NCBI RefSeq assembly: GCF_024448895.1
Contig: NZ_JAMOIC010000001.1
Span: 248,001 to 312,000, forward strand
Direction: 5' to 3'
Length of the DNA stretch: 64,000 nucleotides
DNA from: Stutzerimonas stutzeri
GTDB taxonomy: Bacteria > Pseudomonadota > Gammaproteobacteria > Pseudomonadales > Pseudomonadaceae
Both the position numbers and the translations under genes were made by a program. The notes beneath the pieces are model-generated. The model was given only the letters and a program-made list of their open reading frames with translations. It made no database searches and was not told the DNA's origin. Positions 39,017 to 63,741 of the stretch are shown here, in pieces (the stretch's first letter is position 1; the number at the start of each line of letters is the position of its first letter).

Positions 39017-39093
<77 letters not shown>

Positions 39094-39256: not shown

Positions 39257-39333
<77 letters not shown>

Positions 39334-45515: not shown

Positions 45516-45933
45516 GTCTGTTCCTTGTTCGGATTGAGGGCAGCCTTAGCCGGAAAGCGAGGGACGTACGCATGGAGGCCTCGCTGCGCAGGTTCGCTCC
45601 ATGCTAGTAGCGAGGCCTGCGCGCAGCACAATGAAAGTTATTGGTGCGTCAAAGCAGCAGGAGTGCACCGTCGCACGGCTGCCCTACGAGGACGACCTGC
45701 AAGTCGTTTGGTGAGCTGCGAAGCGCATCGAATCCCGCTATTCATATGTTCGGACCACGCACATCTCGGGCTCAGACCGGGCGCTTGGCTGTGGATAATC
45801 AGCTGAACCACCCCTGCCGGACCCTGCCCGGAAGAGAAACGAACTCCCGACGCTCGGCGGGGATCGGAAAGGCGCAGATGCCTGTATACTCGCGCGCTAT
45901 TTTTCCAAGCCGTATGTGCCGAGGCGGCCTGCT
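45516..45933. other. Intergenic region upstream of rimO
   Basis: About 420 bp between the divergent ferritin-like gene and rimO. I see no gene with a ribosome site. A plausible rimO -10 element, TATACT, lies at 45893-45898 within ctgtatactcgcgcgc. No other element was recognised. Confidence 0.4.
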
Positions 45934-47259: not shown

Positions 47260-47280
47260 TCACGGCGGTTCAAAATCGAA

Positions 47281-47304
47281 GCCCCGCTACTGCGGGGCTT
47301 TTTT
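47281..47304 (+). terminator. Terminator of rimO
   Basis: GCCCCGC / GCGGGGC with a 4-nt loop is followed by a run of seven T, 21 nt past the stop. Confidence 0.92.
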
Positions 47305-47579
47305 TGTGCGCGCCCGGTGAGTGTCGATGCGAGATGCCGACGATCAGCGGTTTGCAGCCACTCGCAGGCGGACCTGAATCCACCATGGCCATCTGCTTGC
47401 ATCAAGATGAAGCACTGACGGTACGGTCAGGTTTCTTTCGCTGCAAAGCTGGGCACGCCTGACACAGGCAATACATCCTGCAGGCCCGAGCAAGTGCTAA
47501 CACACTGAAATTCAAGACTAATAAACACTTATAAAGGCCCGAATAAGGAATGGCTCAGGTTTTGCTTAATCACCAGCAT

Positions 47580-47595
47580 CTGACCGTTCGGCCAA
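47580..47595 (+). promoter_or_regulatory. Candidate RutR operator upstream of the Tsx-type channel gene
   Basis: The 16-bp sequence CTGACCGTTCGGCCAA matches the E. coli RutR consensus TTGACCANNTGGTCAA at 10 of the 14 defined positions. It is a near-perfect inverted repeat with one half-site mismatch. It lies 34 bp before the ATG at 47630, and a RutR-family gene follows the channel gene. Confidence 0.55.
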
Positions 47596-47629
47596 GAAAT
47601 AAAGAACACAACGCACACAGGAGCTACCC

Positions 47630-48427
47630 ATGAAATCAATGCTGACCACTGCTGCACTCGCGAGCGGCCTGATGCTCGCTGGCCAGGCAAGCGCCGCGCC
47701 GATGCTCTGGCAGAACAACAGCCTGACCTATCTCTACGGGAAGAACTTTTCCGTAGACAGCGCCGGCGGTAAGGAAGGTGATATTCAGCAAACCATCACC
47801 TTCGAGCACGCCAGTGGATGGACCTGGGGCGACATGTTCCTGTTCGTCGACAACAAGTGGTACAACGGCATTTCCGGCAGTGACGGTCACACCTATTACG
47901 GTGAGTTCAGTCCTCGACTCTCGCTAGGGAAAGTCACCGGCAACGATCTGTCATTCGGCCCGATTAAAGACGTTCTGATCTCGGCGACATACGAACGGGG
48001 CGAAGGGCGCAACCGCAACTACCTGCTCGGCCCGGCCGTTGACCTGGAAGTGCCGGGTTTCGATCGTCTTGCCATCAATACCTACTACCGCAAACCCGAC
48101 GGCATCACCAACAAGCCGAGCGGTCAGTGGCAGATCACACCGACCTGGGCCATCACCATTCCCGTCGGCAAGTCAGACATCCTGTTCGATGGCTATATCG
48201 ATTGGGTGGTCAACGACAAGAAGAACGGCAACACGGAATTGAAGAAGAACTTCCATTTCAACCCGCAAGTGAAATACGACCTTGGCAAGGCGATGGATTA
48301 CACGCCGGGCATGCTCTATGTCGGTATCGAATATGACTATTGGTCGAACAAATACGGTATCGAGGACAGCGACGCCTTCAACACCGATAACAATGTGACC
48401 AACTTTATCGTCAAGGCCCATTTCTGA
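47630..48427 (+). CDS. Outer-membrane channel, Tsx (nucleoside channel) family
   Basis: A 265-residue outer-membrane beta-barrel. It has a signal peptide (TTAALASGLMLAGQASAAPM) and alternating aromatic strands (SLTYLYGKNFSVDSAGGK, TITFEHASGWTWGDMFLFVD). The C-terminal Phe of FIVKAHF is typical of BamA substrates. The pattern fits the Tsx/OmpK family, which in enteric bacteria passes nucleosides. A good ribosome site (AGGAG) precedes it. The RutR-like operator upstream and the RutR-family gene next door support uptake of a nucleobase or nucleoside for the pathway downstream (inference). Confidence 0.85.
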   Translation: MKSMLTTAALASGLMLAGQASAAPMLWQNNSLTYLYGKNFSVDSAGGKEGDIQQTITFEHASGWTWGDMFLFVDNKWYNGISGSDGHTYYGEFSPRLSLGKVTGNDLSFGPIKDVLISATYERGEGRNRNYLLGPAVDLEVPGFDRLAINTYYRKPDGITNKPSGQWQITPTWAITIPVGKSDILFDGYIDWVVNDKKNGNTELKKNFHFNPQVKYDLGKAMDYTPGMLYVGIEYDYWSNKYGIEDSDAFNTDNNVTNFIVKAHF

Positions 48428-48432
48428 TTGCA

Positions 48433-48462
48433 AGGTTCCGCCCACTGAGCTGGGCGGAACCT
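48433..48462 (+). terminator. Hairpin after the Tsx-type gene
   Basis: An 11-bp perfect stem AGGTTCCGCCC / GGGCGGAACCT with an 8-nt loop starts 5 nt after the stop. There is no T-run, so it could also be a mRNA-stabilising end. Confidence 0.65.
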
Positions 48463-48500
48463 GATCAGCTACCGATTGAACTTGCGAAAGCCACAAAGAC

Positions 48501-48521
48501 GTTGATACGAGCAGTATCAAC
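48501..48521. promoter_or_regulatory. Perfect inverted repeat upstream of the RutR-like gene
   Basis: GTTGATAC-N5-GTATCAAC has 8-bp perfect arms and lies about 125 bp before the TetR-family start. It resembles a TetR-type operator. It is not an Fnr box, because the spacer between TTGAT and ATCAA is 9 rather than 4. Confidence 0.6.
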
Positions 48522-48645
48522 ATCCGTTATTCAGCGAAAGATCTACCGAGTTGGCAGGAGAGCCGCTTAGGGCTGCCTTCATCTCGACCTATGCTACCGT
48601 TTGAAGCGCATCGAGCCTGATGCGGCAGCCACAGGGAACGGACCT

Positions 48646-49311
48646 ATGACCACTTTCGATGCCGCGCTTGCCCAGGCTTCTCCCGCCGGCAAACGCACCG
48701 GGCGCATCCGCCAGAAGAACGAGGAGCTGATCCTTTCGGCCGCTGCTGAAGAGTTCGCCCACCACGGCTATAAAGGCACCAGCATGAACACCATTGCCCT
48801 GCGCGCAGGGCTGCCAAAAGCCAACCTTCACTACTACTTCACCAACAAGCTCGGGCTCTATGTCGAGGTCATGCGGCATATCCTCGAACTTTGGGACAAT
48901 GCGTTCGACAACCTCACCGCGGACGATGACCCAGCCACCGCATTGGCTGATTACATCCGCACCAAGATGGCGTTTTCCCGCAAGCAACCGCAGGCGTCGA
49001 AGATCTTCGCCATGGAAGTGATCAGCGGCTGCGAGTGCCTTTCAGCGCATTTCAACGAAGACTATCGCGAGTGGTTCCGTAGCCGCTCGGCTGTATTCCA
49101 GGCCTGGAGCGACGCGGGGAAGATGGACCCCATCGACCCCATGCATCTGATCTTCCTGATCTGGAGCAGCACTCAGCACTATGCCGACTTCTCCGATCAG
49201 ATTCGCCGCATCACCGGCCAACGCCGGGTCAGGAAGGAAGACTACGAGCGCGGAACCGAAACCCTGATACGCGTCATCCTCAAGGGTTGCGGCCTGACCC
49301 CGCCACGCTGA
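48646..49311 (+). CDS. TetR family regulator, RutR type
   Basis: A 221-residue regulator with an N-terminal TetR helix-turn-helix (EEFAHHGYKGTSMNTIALRA, then GLPKANLHYYFTNKLGLYVE). The C-terminal domain aligns well with E. coli RutR: PQASKIFAMEVISGCECL matches the RutR segment around PQASRLFCMEML, and PIDPMHLIFLIWSSTQHYAD is nearly identical to RutR. E. coli RutR binds uracil or thymine and controls pyrimidine and purine metabolism genes. I chose the ATG at 48646; a TTG at 48601 is also open. It is the best clue to the substrate class of this cluster. Confidence 0.88.
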   Translation: MTTFDAALAQASPAGKRTGRIRQKNEELILSAAAEEFAHHGYKGTSMNTIALRAGLPKANLHYYFTNKLGLYVEVMRHILELWDNAFDNLTADDDPATALADYIRTKMAFSRKQPQASKIFAMEVISGCECLSAHFNEDYREWFRSRSAVFQAWSDAGKMDPIDPMHLIFLIWSSTQHYADFSDQIRRITGQRRVRKEDYERGTETLIRVILKGCGLTPPR

Positions 49312-49349
49312 CCCCAGCACCATCCCGCAGCCCGAGCCGTCAACCTGCC

Positions 49350-50294
49350 ATGTCACGCCGCCTTCGCATCCACTCCCCGGCCATCCATTACTTCGACATG
49401 GTGCGCCGCTGCCAGTCGATCCGCGAAGCCGCTCGCCGGCTGAATGTCGCCTCGTCAGCGGTCAATCGGCAGATTCTGAAACTTGAAGCCGAGATCGAGG
49501 CGCCCCTGTTCGAGCGCCTGCCGGCCGGCCTGCGTCTGACCGCGGCCGGAGAAGTATTTGCGCGCCACGTAATCGTGGTATTGCAGGACGCCGCACGCGC
49601 GAGTTCCGAGCTCGACGCGTTGCAAGGAATGCGCACCGGACATGTTGAGATCGCCACCGTTTCGGGCGTCACCGTGGACCTTTTGCCAACCGTGCTTGAA
49701 AGCATGACGGTGCGCTATCCCCACATCACGGTTGGCGTCACCAGTCTGGGTTCGCAAGCCATCCCGGAAGCCGTGACCAGCGGCCAGGCCGACATAGGCA
49801 TCGCCTTTGCCCTGCGCCGAACGGCAGATTTGCAGCAGCTCGGCGTCGGGCATTTTCGCCTCGGCGCCATCGTCCCGGGCGGCCATCCGTTGGCAGGGCG
49901 ACGTGAGGTGAGTTTCTCGACCTGCGCGGAAGACCGGCTGATCCTGGCCAAAAGCGATCTGTCGATCCACCACCTACTGGCTCCGGTGATCGCCAGAACC
50001 CGGTCGCCGCACAAGGCGGCCTTGCAGACCAGCTCGGTGGAGCTTGCCGCGCAAATGGCCAAACGCGGCGCCGGCATCGCATTCCAGACACGGATCGGCA
50101 TCGAGGCAGAGCTGGCTTCAGGCGCACTGGTGCACGTGCCGCTGAATGACAACGGCCAGGTACTCAGCGACCTGGGCGTCTACGTACGCAGCTCCCGCTA
50201 TCTGCCCGTGGCGGTGGATGCGTTCGTCCGCGCACTCTGCGAGGAAATCGCCTCGCGCGAACAAGCCGAGCGTTTGCACATCGTTTCGGACTGA
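49350..50294 (+). CDS. LysR family transcriptional regulator
   Basis: A 314-residue LysR-type regulator. The winged helix is in YFDMVRRCQSIREAARRLNV and SSAVNRQILKLEAEIEAPLF, followed by ERLPAGLRLTAAGEVFARHV. The effector domain (about 90-310) includes GHVEIATVSGVTVDLLPTVL. It lies 38 nt after the RutR-like gene, in the same direction, and 365 nt before the oxygenase gene, so it may control that operon. The frame is open further upstream, overlapping the TetR end, but homology starts at the ATG used here. The ribosome site is weak. Confidence 0.85.
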   Translation: MSRRLRIHSPAIHYFDMVRRCQSIREAARRLNVASSAVNRQILKLEAEIEAPLFERLPAGLRLTAAGEVFARHVIVVLQDAARASSELDALQGMRTGHVEIATVSGVTVDLLPTVLESMTVRYPHITVGVTSLGSQAIPEAVTSGQADIGIAFALRRTADLQQLGVGHFRLGAIVPGGHPLAGRREVSFSTCAEDRLILAKSDLSIHHLLAPVIARTRSPHKAALQTSSVELAAQMAKRGAGIAFQTRIGIEAELASGALVHVPLNDNGQVLSDLGVYVRSSRYLPVAVDAFVRALCEEIASREQAERLHIVSD

Positions 50295-50659
50295 ACATCC
50301 TCGGGCATATCACTCGCATCTTGCTCGGCAATTACCCTGTTTCGACTTCCATTTCCGCGAGCGTTACCGGCGCAGTACTCCGTCGATCGCGAAAAATCGT
50401 TAAAGGCTCGGCATCTTGATCGGCCGCTCCATGCTGGTGCGTGAATGCCGGCCAAATGTCGATCAGGATGCCTCGAGCCAATCGTTCTGCACTTGGCCCA
50501 GGCCCCATTCCAGAGCATCCGACGCCCGTTTAAAAGGCATGCTCTAGTGATGCCGAAACGGCATCGGCATGCTCGATATTCTCTGCTTTTGCGTACAGCG
50601 AGTGGGCTGGATACTCCGCAGCAACGGGCTTAGAGCCTTTGTTCTTGCAGGTCTTCACC
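50295..50659. promoter_or_regulatory. Control region of the oxygenase-transporter operon
   Basis: This 365-bp region precedes the catabolic operon. It contains a perfect inverted repeat GATGCCG-AAA-CGGCATC (50549-50565) flanked on both sides by direct repeats of GGCATGCTC (50535-50543 and 50566-50574). Such an arrangement suggests a regulator site. Short ORFs here are not credible genes. Confidence 0.55.
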
Positions 50660-51634
50660 ATGTCCTTCTTGCGCGACGCTGACCGCTCTCCTGCGCAGAC
50701 CCTGCCCCTGATTGATCTGGCCGGGCTACTCCAAGGCGACCCACAAGCACGCGTTGCCGTTGCGCAGAACATCGGGCGCGCCTGCCGAGATACAGGCTTC
50801 TTCTACATCCATAACCATGGCATCGATGCCTCGTTGCAACGCGCTGTGTTCGACCAGACGAAGCAGTTGTTCGACCTGCCTGACGAGGCCAAGCGGGCAC
50901 TGGACAAGGCCACCTCGCCGGCCAATCGCGGTTACGAAGCGCTGCGCGGCCAACGTTTGGAGCCAGGCGCGCCGGCGGACCTCAAGGAAGGCTTCTACCT
51001 TGGCCGCGAGCTTGCCCAAGATGACCCGCGCGTGCTGGCGGGTCGCTTCAATCACGGCGCGAACCAATGGCCGATGTTACCTGCGTTCCGCCCGGCCATG
51101 GAGCGCTACCAGGCTGCCATGACCGCTCTCGCCGAGCGCCTGATGGCCGCGTTGGCGCTATCTCTGGCGCTGCCCGAGGATTACTTCGCAGGGTTTTGTA
51201 ACGAGGCCATGGCGACCCTGCGACTGCTGCACTACCCGCCGCCTGCCACCGCTGCGCCTGGCGAGAAGGGGTGCGGCGCCCACACTGACTTCGGTGGGCT
51301 GACGCTGTTGCTGCAGGACGATAATCCGGGCCTGCAGGTGTGGGACCACAGCGCCGAAATCTGGGTCGACGCACCGCCTCTGCCCGGCACTTACGTGGTC
51401 AATCTCGGCGACATGATTGCCCGCTGGACCAACGACCGTTACCGCTCGACCTTGCATCGCGTGGTGAATCTCTCCGGCCATGAGCGCTACAGCGTGCCCT
51501 TCTTCTACGGCGGCAATCCTGACCACCTGGTGAGCTGCATTCCGACCTGCCTCGAACCTGGCGAAGCGCCGCGCTATCCCAGCGTCACCGTTGAAGCGCA
51601 TTACCGCGAAATGTACCGGAGGACCTATGCCTGA
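50660..51634 (+). CDS. 2-oxoglutarate/Fe(II) oxygenase, isopenicillin-N-synthase-like
   Basis: A 324-residue non-haem iron oxygenase. The N-terminal DIOX_N part includes LPLIDLAGLLQGDP and CRDTGFFYIHNHGID. The core has the facial triad: His and Asp in GCGAHTDFGGLTLLLQD and the distal His in RSTLHRVVNLSG, with the 2-oxoglutarate Arg-x-Ser in ERYSVPFF. The family includes fungal thymine 7-hydroxylase and many hydroxylases. With a RutR-type regulator and a nucleobase-type deaminase nearby, hydroxylation or demethylation of a nucleobase is a reasonable guess. Its stop overlaps the next gene by 8 nt. Confidence 0.88.
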   Translation: MSFLRDADRSPAQTLPLIDLAGLLQGDPQARVAVAQNIGRACRDTGFFYIHNHGIDASLQRAVFDQTKQLFDLPDEAKRALDKATSPANRGYEALRGQRLEPGAPADLKEGFYLGRELAQDDPRVLAGRFNHGANQWPMLPAFRPAMERYQAAMTALAERLMAALALSLALPEDYFAGFCNEAMATLRLLHYPPPATAAPGEKGCGAHTDFGGLTLLLQDDNPGLQVWDHSAEIWVDAPPLPGTYVVNLGDMIARWTNDRYRSTLHRVVNLSGHERYSVPFFYGGNPDHLVSCIPTCLEPGEAPRYPSVTVEAHYREMYRRTYA

Positions 51635-52388
51635 TCGTCACGTAGTGCTGATTCACGGCGCCTGGGCCGGCAGCTGGGTCTGGGACGGCATACTCGAAGG
51701 TCTGCGTGCCGCTGGTTACACGCCACATCCCGTGGACCTGCCCGGCAATGGCAACGACGATATTTCGCCAGCAGCAGTGACCCTCGACCTGTATGCGGCG
51801 CACGTTGCCAGTCTGATCGACAGCCTCGACGGACCCGTGCAACTGGTCGCCCATTCAGGCGGCGGATTGACGGCTACCGCCGTGGCCGAGCAGCGTGCCG
51901 AACGTATTTCCGGCGTCGCCTATGTCGCCGGCATGATGCTGCCCAGCGGCCTGCCGTTCGCCGAAGCCTGTGCGGAACTGGTAAGCACGGCGCCGGAAGT
52001 CTCCGGTGTCGGCCCTTTCCTGCAGCGCAGCGCCGACGGCTTGGGCACACGCGTCCCGGCCGAGATCGCCTGCGCTCTGTTCTTTCATGATGTACCCCTG
52101 CCGCAAGCACTGGCCGCTGCCCAGCGCCTGGGCGCGCAACCCGATGGCGGACGCTCCGTGGCCGCTCGCTGGACGCCCGAACGCTTCGGCCGTCTGCCGC
52201 GCCTGTATATCGAATGCAGCGCCGATCGCTCGGTGGTGCCTGCGGTGCAGAGCTGGATGCAGGAGCTGGTGCCGGGCGCCGAGCGCGTCACGCTCGATTG
52301 CGGCCATGCACCCCAACTTTCCAAGCCCGACGCATTGCTCGCTTGCCTGCTGCCCTTCTTTTCGCGCCATGCCGAAACCGTTTTCTGA
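51627..52388 (+). CDS. Alpha/beta hydrolase
   Basis: A 253-residue alpha/beta hydrolase. The oxyanion region is in HVVLIHGAWAGSWVWDGILE, the nucleophile Ser in LVAHSGGGLTATAVA, and the late catalytic His in LDCGHAPQLSKPDALLA. The fold is close to the small methylesterase/hydroxynitrile-lyase-like group. The substrate is unknown. A strong ribosome site (GGAGG, 4 nt before the ATG) lies inside the oxygenase gene end, and the two genes overlap by 8 nt, so they are co-translated. In the inferred pathway it could open a ring or cleave an ester or amide after oxygenation. Confidence 0.85.
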   Translation: MPDRHVVLIHGAWAGSWVWDGILEGLRAAGYTPHPVDLPGNGNDDISPAAVTLDLYAAHVASLIDSLDGPVQLVAHSGGGLTATAVAEQRAERISGVAYVAGMMLPSGLPFAEACAELVSTAPEVSGVGPFLQRSADGLGTRVPAEIACALFFHDVPLPQALAAAQRLGAQPDGGRSVAARWTPERFGRLPRLYIECSADRSVVPAVQSWMQELVPGAERVTLDCGHAPQLSKPDALLACLLPFFSRHAETVF

Positions 52389-52427
52389 TCCTGACCTTTT
52401 GCGATGCACACCAAGGAGAGACTCCCC

Positions 52428-53408
52428 ATGTTCAAGAAATCCCTGATCGCCAGTTCGCTGCTGATGCTGTTCTCCCAGGCCGCACTTGCGGCCGATACCG
52501 TGCGCTGGCTGAATGACTGGCTGCCCGCGGGTGACAAGGCGGTGATCTATCTCGGCGTCGACAAGGGTTTATTCGCCGAGCAAGACATCGAAGTTGAAAT
52601 CGCCAGCGCTCGCGGCGGCAGCGATGTGGTAACCAAGCTGGCGACCGCCAGCGCAGACTTCGGCAGTGCGGGCCTTGCATCCGTGCTGCAGGCCAGGGCC
52701 CAGGGCGCGGTGCCGGTAGTCGCCGTGGCGCCGATCTACAACAAGCAGCCTGATGCATTCTTCACCGCCGAAGGATCGGGCATCGAAAGCTTCAAGGACA
52801 TTTCCGGCAAAACCGTCGCCACTCCGACCTTCTCCGCCTCGAATGTGGTGTTTCCGCTGGTGCTCGAAGCCAACGGCATCGCCCGTGACGGGGTAAAACT
52901 GCTCAAGCTCGACCCCGGCGCCCTGGCGCCCATGCTGGCGACCGGCAAGGTCGACGCGACCATCAACTGGGTGACCGTGGCACCGGGTTTCGCCCGTTCG
53001 ATGCAGGAAGCCGGCAAGCAACTCAAGGTCATTGCCTGGTCGGATTCAGGCTTCGATGGCTACGGCCTGTCGCTGATCGCCTCAGAGCGCTTCCTGAAGG
53101 ATCAGCCAGAGGTTGCGAAGAAATTCATAAAGGCCTACCGCCAAGCACAGGAGATGGCCATCGCCGACCCGGCTGCAGCGGCCGCCGCGCTGAAGAAAAT
53201 GGTCCCGGAAATTGATGAGCAGCAGGCCGTTGAGCAGTTCGAGGCGTCGGTTCCGCTGATGCAGAACGAAATCAGTGAAGCCGAAGGCACTACCGGGTTT
53301 GATACCAAGCGCCTGGAAACCACCTGGCAGTGGGTCGCACGTGCGCAGAACCTGGAGACCGACAGTCTGGACCCGAGCCAGATCGTCGCCAACGGCTTCG
53401 TCGAGTAA
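52428..53408 (+). CDS. ABC importer substrate-binding protein, NMT1/THI5 type
   Basis: A 326-residue periplasmic binding protein. The signal peptide is FKKSLIASSLLMLFSQAALA. The mature part begins DTVRWLNDWLPAGDKAVIYL and GVDKGLFAEQDIEVEIASAR, the opening of the NMT1/THI5-like family that binds pyrimidines such as hydroxymethylpyrimidine, aliphatic sulfonates or related small molecules. It is followed directly by ATPase and permease genes of one importer. GGAG lies about 9 nt before the ATG. Confidence 0.9.
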   Translation: MFKKSLIASSLLMLFSQAALAADTVRWLNDWLPAGDKAVIYLGVDKGLFAEQDIEVEIASARGGSDVVTKLATASADFGSAGLASVLQARAQGAVPVVAVAPIYNKQPDAFFTAEGSGIESFKDISGKTVATPTFSASNVVFPLVLEANGIARDGVKLLKLDPGALAPMLATGKVDATINWVTVAPGFARSMQEAGKQLKVIAWSDSGFDGYGLSLIASERFLKDQPEVAKKFIKAYRQAQEMAIADPAAAAAALKKMVPEIDEQQAVEQFEASVPLMQNEISEAEGTTGFDTKRLETTWQWVARAQNLETDSLDPSQIVANGFVE

Positions 53409-53412
53409 GCCC

Positions 53413-54213
53413 ATGAACCAGACCGAAACCCGCTCGGCCGTGCGGCCGAGCATCGTCTTCGAGCAGGTCCGACAGGTATTCACCTCCTCGGACGGCAGCG
53501 AGGTGGTGGCCCTCGACGACACTAGCTTCTCGATCGATCGTAACGAGTTCATCGCCGTCATAGGCCCCTCGGGCTGCGGCAAGTCCACCTTGTTGCGGAT
53601 TCTGGCGGGGCTTATCCGGCCCACCAGCGGCCAGGTGAACATCTACGGCAAGAAGCTGGACGGCCCGCGCGACGAGATCGGCATCGTCTTCCAGAAGCCG
53701 ACGCTGCTGCCCTGGCTGACTATCCGCGACAACCTCACCTTCCCGATGAAGCACAAATACGGCCGGGTCACGCAGCAAGAACGTGAGCGCGGCGAGGAAC
53801 TGCTTGATCTGGTTGGTCTGAAGGAATTCGGCGGGACGCGTCCGGACGAGCTTTCCGGCGGTATGCAGCAACGCGCCGGAATTGCTCGTGCGCTGTTGCA
53901 CGACCCGGAAATCCTGCTGATGGACGAACCCTTCTCGGCACTCGACGCATTGACCCGCGACGAGCTGAGCCTGGAGCTGCTGAATATCTGGACGCAGCGT
54001 CCGAAGACGGTGTTGTTCATCACTCACTCGATTCCGGAAGCCTTGCTGCTGGCTGACCGAATCCTCGTGATGTCCGCCCGCCCGGGGCGGATAACCGAGA
54101 TCATCGACGTCGACCTGCCGCGGCCAAGGTCCCTGGATACCCTCACCGAGCCGCGCTTCAATGAGCTCGCCAACCATATCCGTCGGAAGGTGTTCAGCCG
54201 TCATGGCCTTTGA
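53413..54213 (+). CDS. ABC importer ATPase (nitrate/sulfonate/pyrimidine type)
   Basis: A 266-residue ATPase with Walker A GPSGCGKSTLLRILAGLIRP, Q-loop VFQKPTLLPWLTIRDNL, signature ELSGGMQQRAGIARALLHDP, Walker B LLMDEPFSALDALTRDEL and H-loop LFITHSIPEA. It belongs to the TauB/SsuB/ThiZ group and pairs with the NMT1-type binding protein. I chose the ATG at 53413, which lies 4 nt after the binding-protein stop; the frame is open upstream within that gene. It overlaps the permease start by 11 nt. Confidence 0.93.
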   Translation: MNQTETRSAVRPSIVFEQVRQVFTSSDGSEVVALDDTSFSIDRNEFIAVIGPSGCGKSTLLRILAGLIRPTSGQVNIYGKKLDGPRDEIGIVFQKPTLLPWLTIRDNLTFPMKHKYGRVTQQERERGEELLDLVGLKEFGGTRPDELSGGMQQRAGIARALLHDPEILLMDEPFSALDALTRDELSLELLNIWTQRPKTVLFITHSIPEALLLADRILVMSARPGRITEIIDVDLPRPRSLDTLTEPRFNELANHIRRKVFSRHGL

Positions 54214-54976
54214 TCGCGCATTGGGCGAGCGCTTCGCCCCCGGGCTGGCGCTGCTCGGACTGTTACTGCTGTGGGAAGCCGCTTGCTGGGCGTTCCGCCT
54301 GCCAGCGTTCGTCCTGCCCTCCCCGAGCGCCATCCTCACCGCCACTTGGAAACTCGACCCGACGATCTGGGCCGAGCACATTTTCGCGACCTTGCGCGTG
54401 ACCTTGCTTGGCTACGGGCTCTCGATTCTGATCGGCATTCCGCTGGCCATCGCGCTGGCGTCCTCGAGACTGTTGTCGCGCACGCTCTATCCGCTGCTGG
54501 TGATCGTGCAGTCGACGCCAATCGTCGCGGTCGCGCCAATTATCGTGGTGGTGATGGGCGCCGGGGACATGCCGCGGGTGTTCATCACCTTTCTGATCGC
54601 GTTTTTCCCGATCGTCGTGTCCACCGTAACCGGGCTGCTTGCGACCCCAACGGAGCTCATCGAGCTGTCCCGCTCCCTGGGTGCCTCGCGGACGCGGGAG
54701 TTTCGCAACATCCGCTTGCCCTTCGCCATTCCGCACCTGTTCTCGGCGCTACGGATCTCCATCACCCTGGCCGTGATCGGTGCGGTGGTGGCTGAGTTCG
54801 TCGCGGCGGACAAGGGGCTGGGTTATTTCATCAACTTCTCGACCTCTATGTTCCAGGTCCCGCAGGCGTTCGCCGCCTTAATGATGCTGGTGATCATCAG
54901 CCTGGGCCTGTTCCAGCTGGTCGGCCTGGTGCAGCGCCTGTGCTTCGCCTGGAGCCTGCCGAAGAACGAACACTGA
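54203..54976 (+). CDS. ABC importer permease (nitrate/sulfonate/pyrimidine type)
   Basis: A 257-residue permease with six hydrophobic helices. It opens with ALGERFAPGLALLGLLLLWE. The coupling-loop EAA region is in LIELSRSLGASRTREFRNIR, followed by LPFAIPHLFSALRISITLAV. It forms the membrane channel for the NMT1-type system. It ends the tightly packed part of the operon; the deaminase gene follows after 70 nt. Confidence 0.92.
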   Translation: MAFDRALGERFAPGLALLGLLLLWEAACWAFRLPAFVLPSPSAILTATWKLDPTIWAEHIFATLRVTLLGYGLSILIGIPLAIALASSRLLSRTLYPLLVIVQSTPIVAVAPIIVVVMGAGDMPRVFITFLIAFFPIVVSTVTGLLATPTELIELSRSLGASRTREFRNIRLPFAIPHLFSALRISITLAVIGAVVAEFVAADKGLGYFINFSTSMFQVPQAFAALMMLVIISLGLFQLVGLVQRLCFAWSLPKNEH

Positions 54977-55046
54977 CACTTCCAAACAGGCAGGTGCAGC
55001 GTACTACCCTGCTGCGCCCGCCTTCACGAACCCATCTATCTGGGAC

Positions 55047-55523
55047 ATGGATATGCCTCTAGACGACGCCGCTTTACTCCGCAAAAGCTTTGACGTGGCG
55101 CGCCGCGCCTTGGCCGAAGGGACACACCCTTTCGGCGCCATCCTGGTCGGGCCCGATGGTGAAACCTTGCTGGAACAGGGCAATGCCTACATGCCGGATC
55201 ACGACATGACCGGCCATGCCGAGCGGGTACTGATGACCCGTGCCTCGACCCGCTACACGCCGGAATTCCTTTCCCGCTGCACCATGTACACCTCTGCCGA
55301 GCCCTGCGCCATGTGTGCCGGCGCGGCGTATTGGGTGGGACTTGGTCGGGTGGTATATGGTCTTTCCGAGCGCAGCTTGAAAACCATCACCGGCAATCAT
55401 CCGGAAAACCCGACGCTGGATCTGCCCTGCCGTGTGGTGTTCGAAGCCGGACAGCGCAAGGTCGAGGTGATCGGCCCGTTGCTCGAAGACGAAGCGGCCG
55501 CCCTGCACGAGGGCATATGGTGA
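55047..55523 (+). CDS. Nucleobase/nucleoside deaminase (cytidine-deaminase fold, guanine-deaminase-like)
   Basis: A 158-residue zinc deaminase. The zinc and proton-shuttle motif is HAE in DHDMTGHAERVLMTRA, and the PCxxC motif is in YTSAEPCAMCAGAAYWVGLG. The overall pattern (PFGAILVGPDG, EGIW end) resembles the guanine-deaminase/tRNA-adenosine-deaminase group more than true cytidine deaminase. It probably hydrolyses an exocyclic amino group of a purine or pyrimidine. It lies 70 nt after the importer permease, in the same direction. Confidence 0.85.
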   Translation: MDMPLDDAALLRKSFDVARRALAEGTHPFGAILVGPDGETLLEQGNAYMPDHDMTGHAERVLMTRASTRYTPEFLSRCTMYTSAEPCAMCAGAAYWVGLGRVVYGLSERSLKTITGNHPENPTLDLPCRVVFEAGQRKVEVIGPLLEDEAAALHEGIW

Positions 55524-55605
55524 TTCGCACCCTGCCAGAATCAGGCAAGCCCGCGGCAGGATCGACATAACGCCACGCAGCAACCTCTGCCTAGCATTCA
55601 TTCCA

Positions 55606-55621
55606 CGGCGCATGAGCGCCG
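55606..55621 (+). other. Short hairpin between deaminase and SDR genes
   Basis: CGGCGC-ATGA-GCGCCG forms a 6-bp stem with a tetraloop in the 125-nt spacer. It has no T-run; it may mark a weak pause or processing site. Confidence 0.45.
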
Positions 55622-55648
55622 AATGATGGCTAAGCGGAGAACCTGAAC

Positions 55649-56386
55649 ATGTCGAACGTCAACGGGAAAATTGTACTCATCACCGGCGCCAGCAGCGGTA
55701 TCGGCGAAGCGACGGCACGCCTGCTGGCCGCCAGAGGCGCCACGGTCGTACTGGGCGCACGGCGCGTCGAACGGCTGGAAGCGCTTGTCGCCAGCATCAC
55801 CGAAACAGGCGGTATCGCGGCCTGTCGTGCATTGGATGTGACCAGCCGCGAGGATACCCAGGCCTTCGTCGATTTTGCCGAGCAGCGCTTTGGCCGCGTC
55901 GATGTGATCATCAACAATGCCGGCGTGATGCCGCTGTCGCGACTCGACGCCCTGAAGATCGAAGAGTGGGACCGGATGATCGACGTGAACATCCGTGGCG
56001 TGCTGCACGGCATCGCGGCCGGGCTGCCACTGATGCAGCGCCAGCGCTCCGGCCAGTTCATCAACATCGCTTCCATCGGCGCTTATGCAGTCAGCCCCAC
56101 CGCTGCTGTTTACTGCGCCACCAAATACGCGGTGCGCGCCATTTCAGAAGGGCTGCGCCAGGAGGTCGGCGGCGATATCCGCGTCACCCTGGTATCTCCC
56201 GGTGTCACCGAGTCGGAACTGGCCGAGAGCATTTCCGATGAGGGCGCGCGGGCTGCCATGAATGACTTTCGCCGTATCGCCATCCCCGCCGAAGCCATCG
56301 CCCGAGCGATCGCCTACGCCGTCGAGCAACCGGCTGATGTCGATGTCAGCGAGCTGGTGGTTCGTCCGACCGCCAGCCCCTACTGA
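55649..56386 (+). CDS. Short-chain dehydrogenase/reductase
   Basis: A 245-residue classical SDR. The cofactor loop is LITGASSGIGEATARLLAAR with ARR after strand two, suggesting NADP. NNAG is in VIINNAGVMPLSRLDALK, Ser in FINIASIGAYAVSPTAAVYC, and Tyr/Lys in VYCATKYAVRAISEGLRQEV. It could oxidise the alcohol made by the oxygenase (inference). CMD-like gene follows after 10 nt, so the pair is co-transcribed. Confidence 0.9.
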   Translation: MSNVNGKIVLITGASSGIGEATARLLAARGATVVLGARRVERLEALVASITETGGIAACRALDVTSREDTQAFVDFAEQRFGRVDVIINNAGVMPLSRLDALKIEEWDRMIDVNIRGVLHGIAAGLPLMQRQRSGQFINIASIGAYAVSPTAAVYCATKYAVRAISEGLRQEVGGDIRVTLVSPGVTESELAESISDEGARAAMNDFRRIAIPAEAIARAIAYAVEQPADVDVSELVVRPTASPY

Positions 56387-56396
56387 GGACGCCGCG

Positions 56397-56852
56397 ATGA
56401 ATCTACTCACTGGTAACGCTTTGAGCGCGGTTTGCCTGGGATTGCTCGGCTCGCTGACATTCGCCTCCCTGGAAGCGGTCGGCAACGAGCGCCACGCCCG
56501 CGGCGTCGAGGTCATGGATCATCTGTCTGGCGGTGCTGGTCAGCCCGTCCTCGATGCGCTGCGGGAGGACTATCCGTTTCTGGCGGACGGCATCACCCGT
56601 TATGCGCTGGGCGATGTCTGGGGGCGCAGCGGCCTGGATGATCGAACCCGCCAGCTGGCGGTAGTCGCCGCTTTCGCCGCGCAGGGCAACTTGCCCTACA
56701 TGAAGGTCCACGCCGGTTACGCGCTGCGCCTTGGCGTTACCCGCGACGAGTTGAAGGAGGTGGTGTATCTGACCACTGTCACTGCCGGCTTTCCTCGCGC
56801 CATCGACGCGGCGCAGGCGCTGCGTGAGGTCGCTGACCCGGCCGCAGAGTGA
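56397..56852 (+). CDS. Carboxymuconolactone decarboxylase-like protein with N-terminal hydrophobic segment
   Basis: A 151-residue protein. The C-terminal ~100 residues fit the carboxymuconolactone decarboxylase (CMD/AhpD-like) fold: LDDRTRQLAVVAAFAAQGNL, HAGYALRLGVTRDELKEVVY. The CxxC peroxidase pair of AhpD is absent. The N-terminus (LSAVCLGLLGSLTFASLEAV) looks like a signal peptide or anchor, which is unusual for this family and suggests export. GAGG lies 8 nt before the ATG. The role in the pathway is unknown; catalysis or redox stress protection are both possible. Confidence 0.8.
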   Translation: MNLLTGNALSAVCLGLLGSLTFASLEAVGNERHARGVEVMDHLSGGAGQPVLDALREDYPFLADGITRYALGDVWGRSGLDDRTRQLAVVAAFAAQGNLPYMKVHAGYALRLGVTRDELKEVVYLTTVTAGFPRAIDAAQALREVADPAAE

Positions 56853-56864
56853 TTGTCCGAAGGG

Positions 56865-56893
56865 TTCGCTGATCATCGCGGTCGATCAGCGAA
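56865..56893. promoter_or_regulatory. Perfect 10-bp inverted repeat upstream of the nucleoside-type importer
   Basis: TTCGCTGATC-N9-GATCAGCGAA starts 12 nt after the CMD-like stop. It could be a terminator-like hairpin (no T-run) or an operator for the downstream importer genes. Confidence 0.55.
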
Positions 56894-57104
56894 CCTGTGC
56901 CATTCGCCTACTCCGCTCCGTCGCCCCAGTCCGGTGCAAGAGAACGAAACAGCTCCACCACTGGCACCAATTAGAGGCACGACCGAGGCTCGCTGCCGTC
57001 ATTTCCCGGCGGCAAAGCTCCTGCCCAGGGTTCCCGCTAGAATCCTGACTGCCTGGCCAGCTTTTTGCTATCCACACGGACATGAACCTCCAGCGGACGC
57101 ACTC

Positions 57105-58649
57105 ATGCCCGACGCATCCTTACCACGCCTGCAGCTGACCGGTATCACCAAGCAATACCCGGGCTGCCTGGCCAACGACCATATCGACCTCAGTATCCAC
57201 GCTGGGGAGATCCACGCCCTGCTTGGTGAGAACGGTGCTGGCAAGAGCACCCTGATGAAAATCATCTACGGGGTGACCCAGCCGGACGCCGGAGAGATGT
57301 GCTGGGAAGGCGAGCCGGTCGTCATGCGCGATCCGGCGCAAGCGCGCGAGCGGGGTATCGGCATGGTCTTCCAGCACTTCTCGCTGTTCGAAACTCTGAG
57401 CGTGGCGGAAAACGTGGCGCTGGCGCTTGGTGCCGCCGCCGGTACGCCCAAACAGCTTGAAGCGAAGATCCGTGACGTCTCCCAACGGTACGGCATGCCC
57501 CTGGAGCCGCATCGTCTGGTCCATAGCCTCTCCATCGGCGAGCGCCAGCGGGTGGAAATCGTCCGCTGCCTGATGCAGGACATCAAGCTGCTGATTCTCG
57601 ACGAGCCCACATCCGTCCTCACACCGCAGGAAGCCGATGATCTCTTCGTGGTGCTGCGCCGGCTTGCGGCCGAAGGTTGCAGCGTGCTGTTCATCAGCCA
57701 CAAGCTGAACGAAGTGCGAGCGCTATGCGAGAACGCAACGGTGCTGCGCGGCGGGCGCGTCTCGGGGGACTGTGTGCCGGCCGAATGCACGGATATGGAT
57801 CTGGCGCGGCTGATGGTGGGCGATGCCGAAGGGCTGGAGGCCGAATACCCGAAAGCCAGCGGCGGTGCGCCCTTCCTGCGGGTCGAGGCGCTCTCCTGGC
57901 GCAACGCCGATCCGTTCGGCGTATCGCTCGAAGAGGTGATGCTGGAAGTGCGCGCTGGCGAGATTGTCGGCATTGCCGGTGTTGCCGGCAACGGACAAGA
58001 CGAGCTGCTCGCGCTGCTCTGCGGAGAACAGCGCCTGCCTCGAGAACAGGGTGCACGCATTCGCTTTCTGGAATCGCCCGTAGCGCATCTACGGCCAGAT
58101 GCCCGCCGCCGTCACGGCATGACCTTTGTCCCCGCAGAGCGACTGGGGCACGGCGCAGTCCCGGAAATGAGCCTGGCCGATAATGCCCTGCTGACCGGCT
58201 TCCAGCAGGAGGGAATGGTTAGGGGCGGGTTGATTCGCCACGGCCGGGTCGAGGCGTTCGCCCGGCGCATCATCGACACCTTTGCGGTTAAGGCGCCGGG
58301 CACTCATACCGCGGCACGCAGCCTTTCCGGCGGCAATCTGCAGAAATTCATCCTCGGCCGCGAGATCCTCCAGCGACCGAAACTGCTGATCGCAGCGCAC
58401 CCGACCTGGGGCGTGGATGTCGGCGCAGCGGCGGCGATCCACCGCGCACTGATCGAGCTGCGCGACGCCGGCACCGCGATTCTGGTGATATCCGAAGACC
58501 TCGAAGAGCTGTTTCAGATCAGCGACCGAATCGCTGCGCTGAGCCACGGCCGCCTGTCTTCGCTAAAAGCGACCGCGCAGACCACCACCACGGATGTCGG
58601 CCGCTGGATGGCGGGACAGTTCGATCACACCACGCCCACCGCCGCCTGA
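57105..58649 (+). CDS. Nucleoside/simple-sugar-type ABC importer ATPase (double domain)
   Basis: A 514-residue protein with two ATPase domains, as in RbsA and in the BMP-type nucleoside importers (NupO). Domain 1 has Walker A LLGENGAGKSTLMKIIYGV, signature VHSLSIGERQRVEIVRCL and Walker B LLILDEPTSVLTP. Domain 2 has the degenerate loop GVAGNGQDELLALLCG and signature SLSGGNLQKFILGREI. I chose the ATG at 57105; upstream frame has no homology, and the ribosome site is weak. A 252-nt gap with a palindrome separates it from the CMD-like gene, so it may have its own promoter. Confidence 0.9.
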   Translation: MPDASLPRLQLTGITKQYPGCLANDHIDLSIHAGEIHALLGENGAGKSTLMKIIYGVTQPDAGEMCWEGEPVVMRDPAQARERGIGMVFQHFSLFETLSVAENVALALGAAAGTPKQLEAKIRDVSQRYGMPLEPHRLVHSLSIGERQRVEIVRCLMQDIKLLILDEPTSVLTPQEADDLFVVLRRLAAEGCSVLFISHKLNEVRALCENATVLRGGRVSGDCVPAECTDMDLARLMVGDAEGLEAEYPKASGGAPFLRVEALSWRNADPFGVSLEEVMLEVRAGEIVGIAGVAGNGQDELLALLCGEQRLPREQGARIRFLESPVAHLRPDARRRHGMTFVPAERLGHGAVPEMSLADNALLTGFQQEGMVRGGLIRHGRVEAFARRIIDTFAVKAPGTHTAARSLSGGNLQKFILGREILQRPKLLIAAHPTWGVDVGAAAAIHRALIELRDAGTAILVISEDLEELFQISDRIAALSHGRLSSLKATAQTTTTDVGRWMAGQFDHTTPTAA

Positions 58650-58659
58650 GATTCCCATC

Positions 58660-59766
58660 ATGTTGTTATCCCTCGAACCCCGCGGCTATGAATCACGCCC
58701 GATGCTCTGGTTTTCGCCAGTGCTTGCTGCGCTGCTGACCCTGATCAGTGGCGCGCTGCTGTTCGCCGCACTGGGCCATCCACCACTGGAAACGCTACGG
58801 GTGCTGCTGATCGATCCGATCAGCGACCTCTATGGCGTATCCGAGCTGCTGGTCAAAGCGCTGCCGATCCTGCTTTGCGCCCTTGGTCTGGCAGTCGTCT
58901 ACAGGGCTCGGATCTGGAACATCGGCGCGGAGGGCCAGCTGCTCATCGGCGCGCTGGCAGGCAGCGCCGTAGCGGTAAACGTCATCGAGTGGGATTCGCG
59001 CTGGGCGCTGGTACTCAGCCTGCTCATCGGTACGCTCGGCGGCGCCGCCTGGGCGGGTCTCTGTGCCTGGCTGCGCACGCAGTTCAACGCCAACGAAATT
59101 CTTACCAGCATCATGCTCAACTACATTGCGCTGAATCTGCTGCTGTTCGCCGTGCACGGGCCGCTTAAGGACCCGGAAGGCTTCAACTTTCCCGAATCGG
59201 CCATGTTCGGCGACGCCACGCGGCTGCCGCAGCTGTTCGGGGATCTGCGCGTGCACGGCGGCTTCTACTTCGCGCTGCTGGCGCTGGTCGTGGTGTGGGT
59301 GTTGTTGCAGAAGAGCTTTCTCGGTTTTCAGATCAAAGTGCTGGGACTCGACAAGCGTGCGGCGGGCTTTGTCGGCTTTCGTGAGAAGCGGCTGATCTGG
59401 ATCGCGCTGCTGATCAGCGGAGGCCTGGCGGGGCTCGCTGGCGTTGCGGAGGTCGTCGGTCCGATCGGCCAGCTGGTGCCCCAGGTGTCGCCCGGCTATG
59501 GGTATGCCGCGATCACGGTAGCCTTTCTCGGCCGCCTCAACCCCATCGGGATTGTCTTTGCCAGCCTGCTGATGGCGCTGCTTTATCTGGGCGGCGAGAA
59601 CGCCCAGATGGCCGCCAACCTGCCCCAATCGATCACCCAGCTGTTCCAGGGCATGGTGCTGTTCTTTCTGCTGGCGTGCGACGTGTTGATTCTCTATCGG
59701 CCGCGGCTGAAGGGCTGGAGCCGCAAGCCGCAGCCGGCAGCGCTCGCACCGGAGCCCGCCGCATGA
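58660..59766 (+). CDS. Nucleoside-type ABC importer permease 1
   Basis: A 368-residue permease with about ten hydrophobic helices. The family segments are LPILLCALGLAVVYRARIWN, IGAEGQLLIGALAGSAVAVN, and FNANEILTSIMLNYIALNLL, followed by SPGYGYAAITVAFLGRLNPI. It matches the NupP-type BMP importer permease. The ATG at 58660 follows the ATPase stop by 10 nt. Confidence 0.92.
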   Translation: MLLSLEPRGYESRPMLWFSPVLAALLTLISGALLFAALGHPPLETLRVLLIDPISDLYGVSELLVKALPILLCALGLAVVYRARIWNIGAEGQLLIGALAGSAVAVNVIEWDSRWALVLSLLIGTLGGAAWAGLCAWLRTQFNANEILTSIMLNYIALNLLLFAVHGPLKDPEGFNFPESAMFGDATRLPQLFGDLRVHGGFYFALLALVVVWVLLQKSFLGFQIKVLGLDKRAAGFVGFREKRLIWIALLISGGLAGLAGVAEVVGPIGQLVPQVSPGYGYAAITVAFLGRLNPIGIVFASLLMALLYLGGENAQMAANLPQSITQLFQGMVLFFLLACDVLILYRPRLKGWSRKPQPAALAPEPAA

Positions 59767-59821
59767 TCTTCCTGCCCCACTCTTCTGATGGTTTGCCGCT
59801 TGCGCCTCGAGGCTTGATTTG

Positions 59822-60748
59822 ATGGATATCGACCTACTCACGAACATTTTCTACGCCATGATCCGGACCGGCACGCCGCTGCTGCTGGTAGCCCTTGGCG
59901 AACTGGTCTGCGAAAAGTCCGGCGTTCTCAATCTCGGCCAGGAAGGCATGATGCTGTTCGGTGCAGTGGCAGGTTTCATCGCCGCCTTCGCTACCGGCAG
60001 CCTCTGGCTCGGCGTCGTTTTCGCCTGCCTGGGCGGCATGCTGCTGTCGCAGCTGTTCGCGCTGGTGGCACTGGGTTTCAACGCCAATCAGGTTGCCACT
60101 GGCCTGGCACTGACCATTTTTGGCGTAGGCCTGTCTTCCTTCATCGGTGCGGGCTGGGTCGGCAAGCCGCTCGCCGGTTTCGAGCCGGTCGCCATTCCTT
60201 TCCTCAGCGATATCCCCATGATTGGCCGCATGCTCTTCGCCCAGGATCTGCTGGTCTACCTGTCCTTTGCGCTTTTCGCCCTGGTCGCCTGGGTGCTGTT
60301 GAAGAGTCGTATCGGCCTGATCATCCAGGCGGTCGGCGAGAACCCCAACGCTGCCAGCGCCATGGGCCTGCCGGTATTGCGAGTTCGCGCGCTGGCCGTG
60401 CTATTCGGCGGCGCAATGGCCGGTCTGGCGGGCGGCTACCTGTCGCTCGCCTATACCCCGATGTGGGCGGAGAACATGACTGCCGGTCGCGGCTGGATCG
60501 CCCTGGCGCTGGTGGTCTTCGCCAGCTGGCGCGTAGGTCGGGTGCTGCTGGGCGCCTACCTGTTCGGCCTTGCCAGCATCGTGCATCTGGTGGCGCAGGG
60601 CATTGGTCTGTCGATTCCCAGCAACCTGCTGGCGATGCTGCCGTACGTAGCGACCATCATCGTGCTGGTCCTGCTGTCACGCGACGCGATCCGCACCCGC
60701 CTGTACGCACCGGTTTCCCTGGGGCAACCCTGGAAGGCCGGCCATTGA
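59822..60748 (+). CDS. Nucleoside-type ABC importer permease 2
   Basis: A 308-residue permease of the NupQ type. It has GTPLLLVALGELVCEKSGVL, NLGQEGMMLFGAVAGFIAAF and a later LPVLRVRALAVLFGGAMAGL, then AGRGWIALALVVFASWRVGR. The ATG at 59822 has GAGG 9 nt before it; a TTG one codon earlier is also open. It ends the cluster. No binding-protein (BMP-family) gene precedes or follows it within the window. Confidence 0.92.
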   Translation: MDIDLLTNIFYAMIRTGTPLLLVALGELVCEKSGVLNLGQEGMMLFGAVAGFIAAFATGSLWLGVVFACLGGMLLSQLFALVALGFNANQVATGLALTIFGVGLSSFIGAGWVGKPLAGFEPVAIPFLSDIPMIGRMLFAQDLLVYLSFALFALVAWVLLKSRIGLIIQAVGENPNAASAMGLPVLRVRALAVLFGGAMAGLAGGYLSLAYTPMWAENMTAGRGWIALALVVFASWRVGRVLLGAYLFGLASIVHLVAQGIGLSIPSNLLAMLPYVATIIVLVLLSRDAIRTRLYAPVSLGQPWKAGH

Positions 60749-60755
60749 CCGAGTC

Positions 60756-60786
60756 GGAAAGCGGCGGCTGCCAGGCTCCGCTTTCC
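60756..60786. terminator. Hairpin between convergent permease and ATPase genes
   Basis: GGAAAGCGG / CCGCTTTCC is a 9-bp perfect stem with a 13-nt loop in the 76-bp convergent spacer. T-runs are weak on both sides. Confidence 0.55.
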
Positions 60787-60824
60787 ATTCACCATCGTGC
60801 TCATGACGTTCGATTTCGCTACCG

Positions 60825-63542: not shown

Positions 63543-63741
63543 TGGATCCCCCTCGCCGTGTTTCGCTGATGCCGGATGCAACAACGCAGCTTCATAAGAG
63601 CCGAATAAGGATCACCATAGCTATCGTGTGGACATGCATTGCAACACAGAGGCAGCGGTCTAATGTCGCAGCAGCTCCGCATGAGCCGACGTTGCCGCGT
63701 CAAGCTATGCTTGAAAACCCGCCCACACCCAAGGATCACTC

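Follow-up and report, generated by a model that had tools for sequence, protein, structure and literature searches.

The locus considered here lies in a window of 64 kb, the whole stretch of DNA that was analysed (positions 248001-312000 of contig C1, NZ_JAMOIC010000001.1), in the 5.39 Mb genome of Stutzerimonas stutzeri. Between rimO and a calcium-type ATPase gene are 14 plus-strand genes, running from a Tsx-type channel to permease 2 of a nucleoside-type importer. A sequence-only reading of the window had proposed them as a candidate system for nucleobase or nucleoside uptake and catabolism with an oxygenase at its core. All fourteen were recovered as open frames with ordinary family matches in profile searches. 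They are given below with two promoter-like sites and two further genes of the set that lie beyond the window.

47551..47566, plus strand: sigma-54-type promoter site TGGC-N7-TTGCT, 63 bp upstream of Tsx
47630..48427, plus strand: Tsx-type outer-membrane nucleoside channel (PF03502, 48.2 bits, cut-off 27.2)
48646..49311, plus strand: TetR regulator with a RutR-type (YcdC-like) C-terminal domain (PF08362, 180.7 bits)
49350..50294, plus strand: LysR-type regulator (PF00126, PF03466)
50660..51634, plus strand: OXY1, Fe(II)/2-oxoglutarate (2OG) oxygenase, isopenicillin-N-synthase (IPNS)-like (PF14226, DIOX_N; PF03171, 2OG-FeII_Oxy)
51627..52388, plus strand: ABH, alpha/beta hydrolase (PF12697), sharing 8 bp with the end of OXY1
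52428..53408, plus strand: NMT1/THI5-like substrate-binding protein (PF09084, 141.3 bits)
53413..54213, plus strand: ATPase of the NMT1-type ABC importer (family matches)
54203..54976, plus strand: permease of the NMT1-type ABC importer (family matches)
55047..55523, plus strand: DEAM, small zinc nucleobase deaminase, guanine-deaminase-like (HAE...PCxMC; PF00383)
55649..56386, plus strand: SDR oxidoreductase, peripheral (family match)
56397..56852, plus strand: CMD-domain protein, peripheral (PF02627)
57054..57069, plus strand: sigma-54-type promoter site, 35 bp upstream of the nucleoside-type importer operon
57105..58649, plus strand: ATPase of the nucleoside/purine-type ABC importer (family matches)
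58660..59766, plus strand: permease 1 (BPD_transp_2) of the nucleoside-type importer (family matches)
59819..60748, plus strand: permease 2 (BPD_transp_2) of the nucleoside-type importer (family matches)
L031:4884-5975, beyond the window: presumed binding protein of the nucleoside-type importer, 3s99/AtzT-like
L031:6125-7273, beyond the window: OXY2, second Fe(II)/2OG oxygenase, 45% identical to OXY1

The extent of 47580..60748 drawn in the sequence-only reading is right for the genes it encloses but not for the end of the system, as the gene set extends beyond 60748: past the Ca-ATPase gene and an SDR gene lie the importer binding protein and OXY2. The choline genes betA, betB and betT, named by reading the sequence with no family search, come after OXY2. 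Gene order of the cluster is kept in the relatives G129 and G096. The Ca-type P-type ATPase gene (60825-63584, minus strand) separates the importer genes from the presumed binding protein; it occupies the same interval in G096 and is absent there in G129, which instead carries genes that look by eye like a deoxyribosyltransferase and a transporter. The last residues of OXY2 in this genome are unlike those of its relatives and the usual C-terminal end was found in another frame, pointing to a frame change near the 3' end or an assembly error. A stop also lies inside the OXY2 match of G129.

The distribution of the locus was assessed in 148 genomes of the family (G labels), with an OXY1 cut-off of 60% identity, and in a scan of named genomes from which the best 80 of 192 loci (L labels), all at least 58% identical to OXY1, were retained. 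The family search returned 125 matches in 61 genomes, with 18 matches in 18 genomes reaching at least 60% identity; the locus is therefore accessory. Nine of these 18 belong to the query's own genus, which was sampled with 18 genomes. The 80 named loci span Stutzerimonas, Halopseudomonas, Marinobacter, Alloalcanivorax, Acinetobacter, rhizobia and others. Linkage within them was counted by tblastn of the cluster proteins. ABH was found in 72 of the 80 loci and in 24 of 27 genus labels, in 69 cases following no more than 150 bp from OXY1, making it the most constant partner of OXY1 and part of the core. The NMT1 binding protein and DEAM were each present in 44 loci, 8-oxoguanine deaminase kin in 34 and the nucleoside-type ATPase in 25. 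The housekeeping proteins used as controls, four in number, RimO and BetA/B/T, were found at 0/80 loci. The recurrence of relatives of the cluster genes around OXY1 thus exceeds chance.

OXY1 was accompanied by one or more purine-related markers (the nucleoside-type importer, 8-oxoguanine deaminase, a guanine-deaminase-like enzyme, or enzymes of urate or allantoin) at 64 of the 80 loci, and at 55 of the 61 where the flanks are complete. Even with a wider marker set 13 loci had none, eight of them being stretches shorter than 17 kb and the others including rhizobial loci. In the family sample, DEAM was found within 20 kb of OXY1 in 15 of the 18 genomes and 8-oxoguanine deaminase in 10. The SDR and the CMD protein fared differently: they occur at 14 and 13 of the 80 loci, confined to Pseudomonadaceae, and the close relative G096 has ABH and no CMD gene. 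For these reasons we place both outside the core and reject an SDR-CMD sequence as part of the pathway. The hydrolase belongs to the core, whereas the SDR and CMD genes are peripheral, and the alcohol-oxidation step proposed in the sequence-only reading finds no support.

In sibling genomes, pieces of the cluster are shuffled into larger regions together with xanthine dehydrogenase (XDH) genes, 8-oxoguanine deaminase, further oxygenases and an NCS2-like permease recognised by eye. Rieske oxygenases of VanA_C type lie inside two such regions (L044:14336-15361 in G143 and L046:13962-15029 in G103) and represent a possible parallel route of purine oxidation or demethylation. In G066 a run reading by eye like rutF-E-D-C-B-A (L056:15188-19432) adjoins the OXY1 region, so that pyrimidine and purine use may stand side by side there; rut-like genes lie beside the cluster in at least 5 of the 80 named loci, by eye and unscored, gene calling having missed some genes. 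Apparent three-part molybdenum hydroxylase genes, of which the large subunits alone were scored, lie near OXY1-ABH in Bradyrhizobium (L105:11887-15685) and Corticibacter (L132:15134-18787). In Stutzerimonas kirkiae (L079) the pair stands near a receptor/regulator run that reads by eye like a FecI/FecR-type system, and no molybdenum hydroxylase domain was found in that genome.

The cluster itself is not a rut or reductive pyrimidine pathway, as the sequence-only reading had held. It shares with rut the RutR-type regulator domain; however, the regulator scored 192.2 bits against the RutR equivalog cut-off of 368, and no rut enzyme appeared among the matches shown for the fourteen proteins.

OXY1 possesses the HxD...H iron triad and the RxS 2OG site of IPNS-like oxygenases. 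With numbering that begins after Met, residues H207, D209 and H265 (iron) and R275 and S277 (2OG) were invariant in 18 aligned sequences and at least 97% conserved in the 80 loci; OXY2 too keeps the iron triad and the 2OG residues. The nearest solved structures to OXY1 were 9ovh, 6jyv, TraH and SpoC, with thymine-7-hydroxylase at 145 bits, while for an OXY2 relative (L019) thymine-7-hydroxylase ranked third among structures at 172 bits. The Neurospora enzyme (5c3p; PMC4787775) shares with OXY1 the fold family and the Fe/2OG residues, and its Asn87 is reported to bond O2 of thymine (PMC4787775). Of its six base contacts compared, Asn87, Arg190 and Phe292 are identical in OXY1, whereas Glu122 is replaced by Tyr, Tyr217 by Phe (Trp in 1 of 18) and Asn294 by Gly, Ser or Thr. 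OXY1 has Asn at the Asn87 place in 79 of the 80 loci; OXY2 has His there, and the printed alignments give Trp or Phe for 9ovh, 6jyv and SpoC. The retention of Asn at the base-bonding place of thymine-7-hydroxylase is suggestive only. In ABH, Ser77, Asp200 and His227 are conserved and are read as a putative catalytic triad.

DEAM keeps the HAE and PCxMC motifs in 44 loci. Its likeness to guanine deaminase (1wkq) amounted to 48 bits, against 86-87 bits for deaminases of CMP/dCMP type (8wlw/5xkq), and we describe it as guanine-deaminase-like by sequence likeness alone. Identification of DEAM as the tRNA adenosine deaminase TadA was rejected at 57.5 of the 150 bits of the TadA equivalog. The guanine-deaminase-like enzyme of the sequence-only reading is thus present, but is not the main GuaD of the organism, which sits with XdhB and 8-oxoguanine deaminase on contig C11. 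The latter enzyme (NF006055, PRK08203), described from Pseudomonas and the Sargasso Sea (Hall et al. 2010, cited in PMC6186785), therefore lies on another contig in this genome, whereas in many relatives it is found beside OXY1 or OXY2. Two sets of neighbouring amidohydrolases were scored. Among seven, three passed the 8-oxoguanine deaminase cut-off, two PRK12393 and two none; among four, two passed 8-oxoguanine deaminase, one PRK12393 and one fell just below guanine deaminase.

The presumed binding protein of the nucleoside-type importer adopts the BMP fold of the purine-binding proteins 3s99 (413 bits) and AtzT (371 bits). Reported binding values of AtzT are 0.11 uM for guanine and 2.5 uM for adenine (PMC6834077), and adenine was modelled as the ligand in the 3s99 structure. 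The seven guanine contacts of AtzT (PMC6834077) were mapped by hand on the printed alignment (chain number +5). The locus protein equals 3s99 at 7/7 and AtzT at 4/7 (Ser97, Phe98, Glu165 and Trp194); a fifth is aromatic in both (Tyr45 to Trp), while Asn218 and Asn220 are replaced by His and Asp. All 34 binding-protein genes of at least 76% identity had an oxygenase match no more than 1.3 kb away, 41-48% identical to OXY1, and ten of these oxygenases, when aligned, proved to be of one type, OXY2. For 15 of the 34 an 8-oxoguanine deaminase lay within 6 kb (87 matches above the curated cut-off were counted).

Two further substrates suggested by the names or profiles of the importers were rejected. 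The NMT1/THI5-like binding protein bears only a distant resemblance to THI5 or to the FAMP-binding protein 3ix1, arguing against import of a thiamine precursor; the name was likewise found misleading in the xanthine riboswitch study (PMC7373994). A vitamin B6 importer (NF047930/NF047929/NF047928) was dismissed with scores of 438 of 670, 191.5 of 400 and 215 of 465 bits, all below the cut-offs.

That study presents the NMT1-motif RNA (RF03054) as an off-switch responding to xanthine and urate (Yu and Breaker 2020, PMC7373994). The associated genes encode pcbC-type dioxygenases, NMT1/THI5-like and tauA-type importers, PRK12393 deaminases, tsx and tadA, and the exact functions of the dioxygenases are given by its authors as not established (PMC7373994). 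The cluster resembles these sets in its gene kinds. It brings together a pcbC/IPNS-like dioxygenase, an NMT1/THI5-like importer, tsx and purine deaminase kin, and the sets share with it both 8-hydroxyguanine/guanine deaminase kin and a tadA-like deaminase (PMC7373994). The claim that the system was undescribed consequently does not stand: the gene kinds are already known and this is not an unknown system. Unlike the riboswitch sets, the locus is accompanied by a RutR-type TetR regulator, a LysR regulator and sigma-54-type sites, and neither it nor its genome carries the riboswitch; ABH, SDR and CMD are not among the genes named in the passages compared (PMC7373994).

The RNA and the oxygenase nonetheless keep company. 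RF03054 was found in 14 of the 148 family genomes (13 above the gathering score, with G103 falling short of it). Every one of the 14 has an oxygenase match, as do 61 of the 148 in total, and 11 of them belong to the set of 18 OXY1 genomes. Genome-wide searches for RF03054 and XdhB covered the genomes of 47 of the 80 named loci, with most Stutzerimonas left out, and RF03054 was present in 33 of these 47 genomes with an OXY1 relative (32 above score). In Pseudooceanicola spongiae (L118) two successive oxygenase genes, the second of them the OXY1 relative, have RF03054 just ahead of them, at 8880-8928 where the first gene starts; six other loci scanned alongside had no RF03054. In G043 it falls inside a region holding RutR, LysR and Tsx.

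A distinctive arrangement was observed in Alloalcanivorax-type clusters. At all five loci of this type (L074, L075, L099, L104 and L120), genes for a GuaD-like enzyme, OHCU decarboxylase, PuuE allantoinase, HIU hydrolase and PuuD urate oxidase adjoin those for 8-oxoguanine deaminase, OXY1, ABH, the NMT1 importer and DEAM. L074 and L075 also carry allantoicase, and L074, L075 and L120 the LysR gene. Family searches support the gene names in L120 and L074, with 8-oxoguanine deaminase above cut-off in both; the GuaD-like protein of L120 scored 331.6 bits, just below the subfamily cut-off of 351. No XdhB was detected at E<=1e-60 in the five genomes, which are among the eight of the 47 searched that lack it. 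L104 is a metagenome-assembled genome, so its missing XdhB weighs less. Judged from these gene contents, OXY1 would be the one obvious purine oxidase of the Alloalcanivorax-type clusters. In A. xenomutans a single weak match to a molybdenum-cofactor domain (114 bits) was found, the search not having extended to Rieske-type purine oxidases; with one weak match, a substitute molybdenum enzyme is excluded best in this species and not in the other four.

Regulation was approached with the canonical sigma-54 pattern, tried after one site had been seen upstream of Tsx; relatives were examined afterwards. The window holds two matches to the pattern, one ahead of Tsx and one ahead of the nucleoside-type importer, with none in 1-47500, and both sites are found at the same places in the relatives L033 and L035. 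Across the 80 loci there were 128 such sites against 20.7 expected in resampled sequence, and with one locus per genus label 29 against 6.84. Sites within 200 bp upstream were concentrated before the nucleoside-type ATPase (18/25) and NMT1 (14/44), with fewer before OXY1 (8/80), Tsx (1/7) and the NMT1-type ATPase (2/54). None was found within that distance of ABH (72 genes), the NMT1-type permease (46), DEAM (44), the nucleoside-type permeases (19 and 26), 8-oxoguanine deaminase (34), RutR (11), LysR (11), SDR (14), CMD (13), PuuE (9) or PuuD (6). OXY1 in the window has no sigma-54-type site close by and, with sites before just 8 of 80, the same holds for many OXY1 genes. A promoter scan found no sigma-70-like promoters. 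The recurring sites before Tsx and the nucleoside-type importer would imply use of the substrate as a nitrogen source, and from this pattern we infer that the locus is probably sigma-54-driven and nitrogen-regulated.

Elsewhere in the window, a ROSE-type RNA thermometer (RF02523, 61.9 bits, cut-off 43) was detected at 36034-36099 on the minus strand, at the start of a minus-strand gene (35596-36039) that reads like a small heat-shock protein. Two equal-scoring tRNA genes (39017-39090 and 39257-39330) stand 240 bp apart in about 1.9 kb without called genes.

Taken together, the linkage points to purines generally (guanine, xanthine, 8-oxoguanine and urate), and we infer a purine substrate from it; the nucleobase uptake and catabolic locus of the sequence-only reading, with the oxygenase at its core, is supported in this form, while its narrower suggestion of a methylated or otherwise modified base gains no support from the linkage. 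In the scheme that we propose, Tsx would admit a base or its nucleoside across the outer membrane and the two ABC importers, NMT1-type and nucleoside-type, would take the base up. OXY1 with its partner ABH would then oxidise the imported base, and DEAM would remove an amino group to give a product that could enter a urate-allantoin pathway encoded elsewhere in the genome. OXY2 is linked to the purine-binding protein. The oxidation most likely hydroxylates the purine ring; the leading candidate is guanine to 8-oxoguanine, followed by conversion to urate by way of 8-oxoguanine deaminase. Two observations favour this reaction: 8-oxoguanine deaminase is a neighbour, and OXY2 is paired with a binding protein of the guanine/adenine kind. 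We are confident that the locus serves purine uptake and oxidation. That OXY1 and OXY2 oxidise purines toward urate appears reasonably probable, while hydroxylation at C8 of guanine or xanthine is put forward tentatively; the position attacked and the order of steps are reasoned guesses.

Several observations weigh against this scheme. Each of its steps is a prediction from sequence. Plain ring hydroxylation needs no hydrolase, yet ABH is the most constant partner of OXY1; ABH is the main unexplained part of the system, and any need for it is conjectural. In four rhizobial loci (L123, L124, L138 and L139) OXY1-ABH lies in a shared nuo/lon/clpX-type region without purine neighbours (assigned by Pfam for L123 and by the same gene clusters for the other three), and in S. 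kirkiae the pair sits among unrelated genes with no purine markers nearby. Conservation of Asn88 in OXY1 could have other reasons. XdhB was found in every family-sample genome with OXY1 (at least 60% identity) or an OXY2-linked binding protein, so no bypass of XDH is needed there, and such a bypass is rejected as a general rule for Pseudomonadaceae. Other molybdenum-hydroxylase domains, of which A. balearicus has two and three further Alloalcanivorax-type genomes have five apiece, might replace XDH. RF03054 was absent at the gathering score from the window and L031, with nothing at E<=5 in 45500-62000, and was not found in this genome (G000) under stricter filters. For the four loci on chromosome-size contigs (contig 1 being taken as the chromosome), the approximate distance from OXY1 to the nearest RF03054 was 1.1 kb in L118, 41 kb in L110, 0.5 Mb (across the origin) in L115 and 0.58 Mb in L129; co-occurrence is hence often without adjacency, and its counts are uncorrected for genome relatedness. 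Finally, chance gives two sigma-54-type sites per 64 kb fairly often (26 of 100 shuffles had as many), and the case for sigma-54 therefore rests on the relatives.

Ranked next after guanine to 8-oxoguanine is the conversion of xanthine to urate. OXY1 would here be a substitute xanthine/hypoxanthine hydroxylase, producing urate without molybdenum, and 8-oxoguanine deaminase would belong to a separate scavenging branch. Precedent exists in the fungal 2OG-dependent xanthine hydroxylase XanA, and the function of HpxDE in Klebsiella may be compared. The Alloalcanivorax-type clusters, combining GuaD-like and urate enzymes in genomes without XdhB, speak for this explanation, and xanthine or urate is the reported ligand of the riboswitch (PMC7373994). 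However, it leaves the adjacent 8-oxoguanine deaminase unexplained, and the OXY1-bearing Pseudomonadaceae also retain XDH. We regard it as unlikely.

N-demethylation is kept alive by the constancy of ABH, which plain hydroxylations do not explain. OXY1 would in that case act on methylated purines (e.g. methylxanthines or methylguanines), in line with the methylated base suggested by the sequence-only reading. ABH would hydrolyse the resulting intermediate (N-formyl or N-hydroxymethyl), releasing a base for DEAM and the urate route. This accounts for the hydrolase at 72 of 80 loci. It also finds an echo in the VanA_C-type enzymes of some sibling loci, caffeine N-demethylases belonging to the wider Rieske oxygenase kind. 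An off-switch that senses xanthine suits xanthine as an end product (PMC7373994), and amidohydrolases acting on N2,N2-dimethylguanine are reported (PMC13054789). Conversely, most of the neighbouring amidohydrolases scored pass the cut-off for 8-oxoguanine deaminase or PRK12393, and no methylpurine-specific model appeared among the matches, possibly because none exists. On balance, demethylation seems improbable as the role of OXY1.

Least probable is a substrate of OXY1-ABH outside the purines, either another heterocycle or a plant metabolite; the presence of the pair in nucleobase regions would then reflect shared importers and nitrogen control. The chemical diversity of the OXY1 fold family (HxnY, an IPNS-type enzyme, acts in fungal nicotinate breakdown) would allow this, as would the rhizobial and S. 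kirkiae pairs that lack purine neighbours. Against it stands the recurrence with OXY1, across genera, of urate genes, DEAM, 8-oxoguanine deaminase and the link to the riboswitch.

Returning to purine ring hydroxylation, no paper assigning a reaction to these oxygenases was found among the titles and abstract openings of the literature matches listed. What is new here is ABH as a constant partner of OXY1, the tie between OXY2 and a purine-binding protein, the linkage of both oxygenases to 8-oxoguanine deaminase, the sigma-54-type sites, and clusters beside urate-degradation genes in genomes without detected XDH. An open annotation question is thereby reduced to a short list of enzyme assays. 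It is possible, if still doubtful, that OXY1 and OXY2 are founding members of a family of bacterial Fe(II)/2OG purine hydroxylases, yielding 8-oxoguanine (or urate) from imported purines, and form with 8-oxoguanine deaminase a molybdenum-free, nitrogen-controlled and XDH-independent route to urate. If so, the missing function of the riboswitch-associated dioxygenases and a metabolic source of substrate for 8-oxoguanine deaminase would both be supplied, and in Alloalcanivorax xenomutans this may be the sole route.

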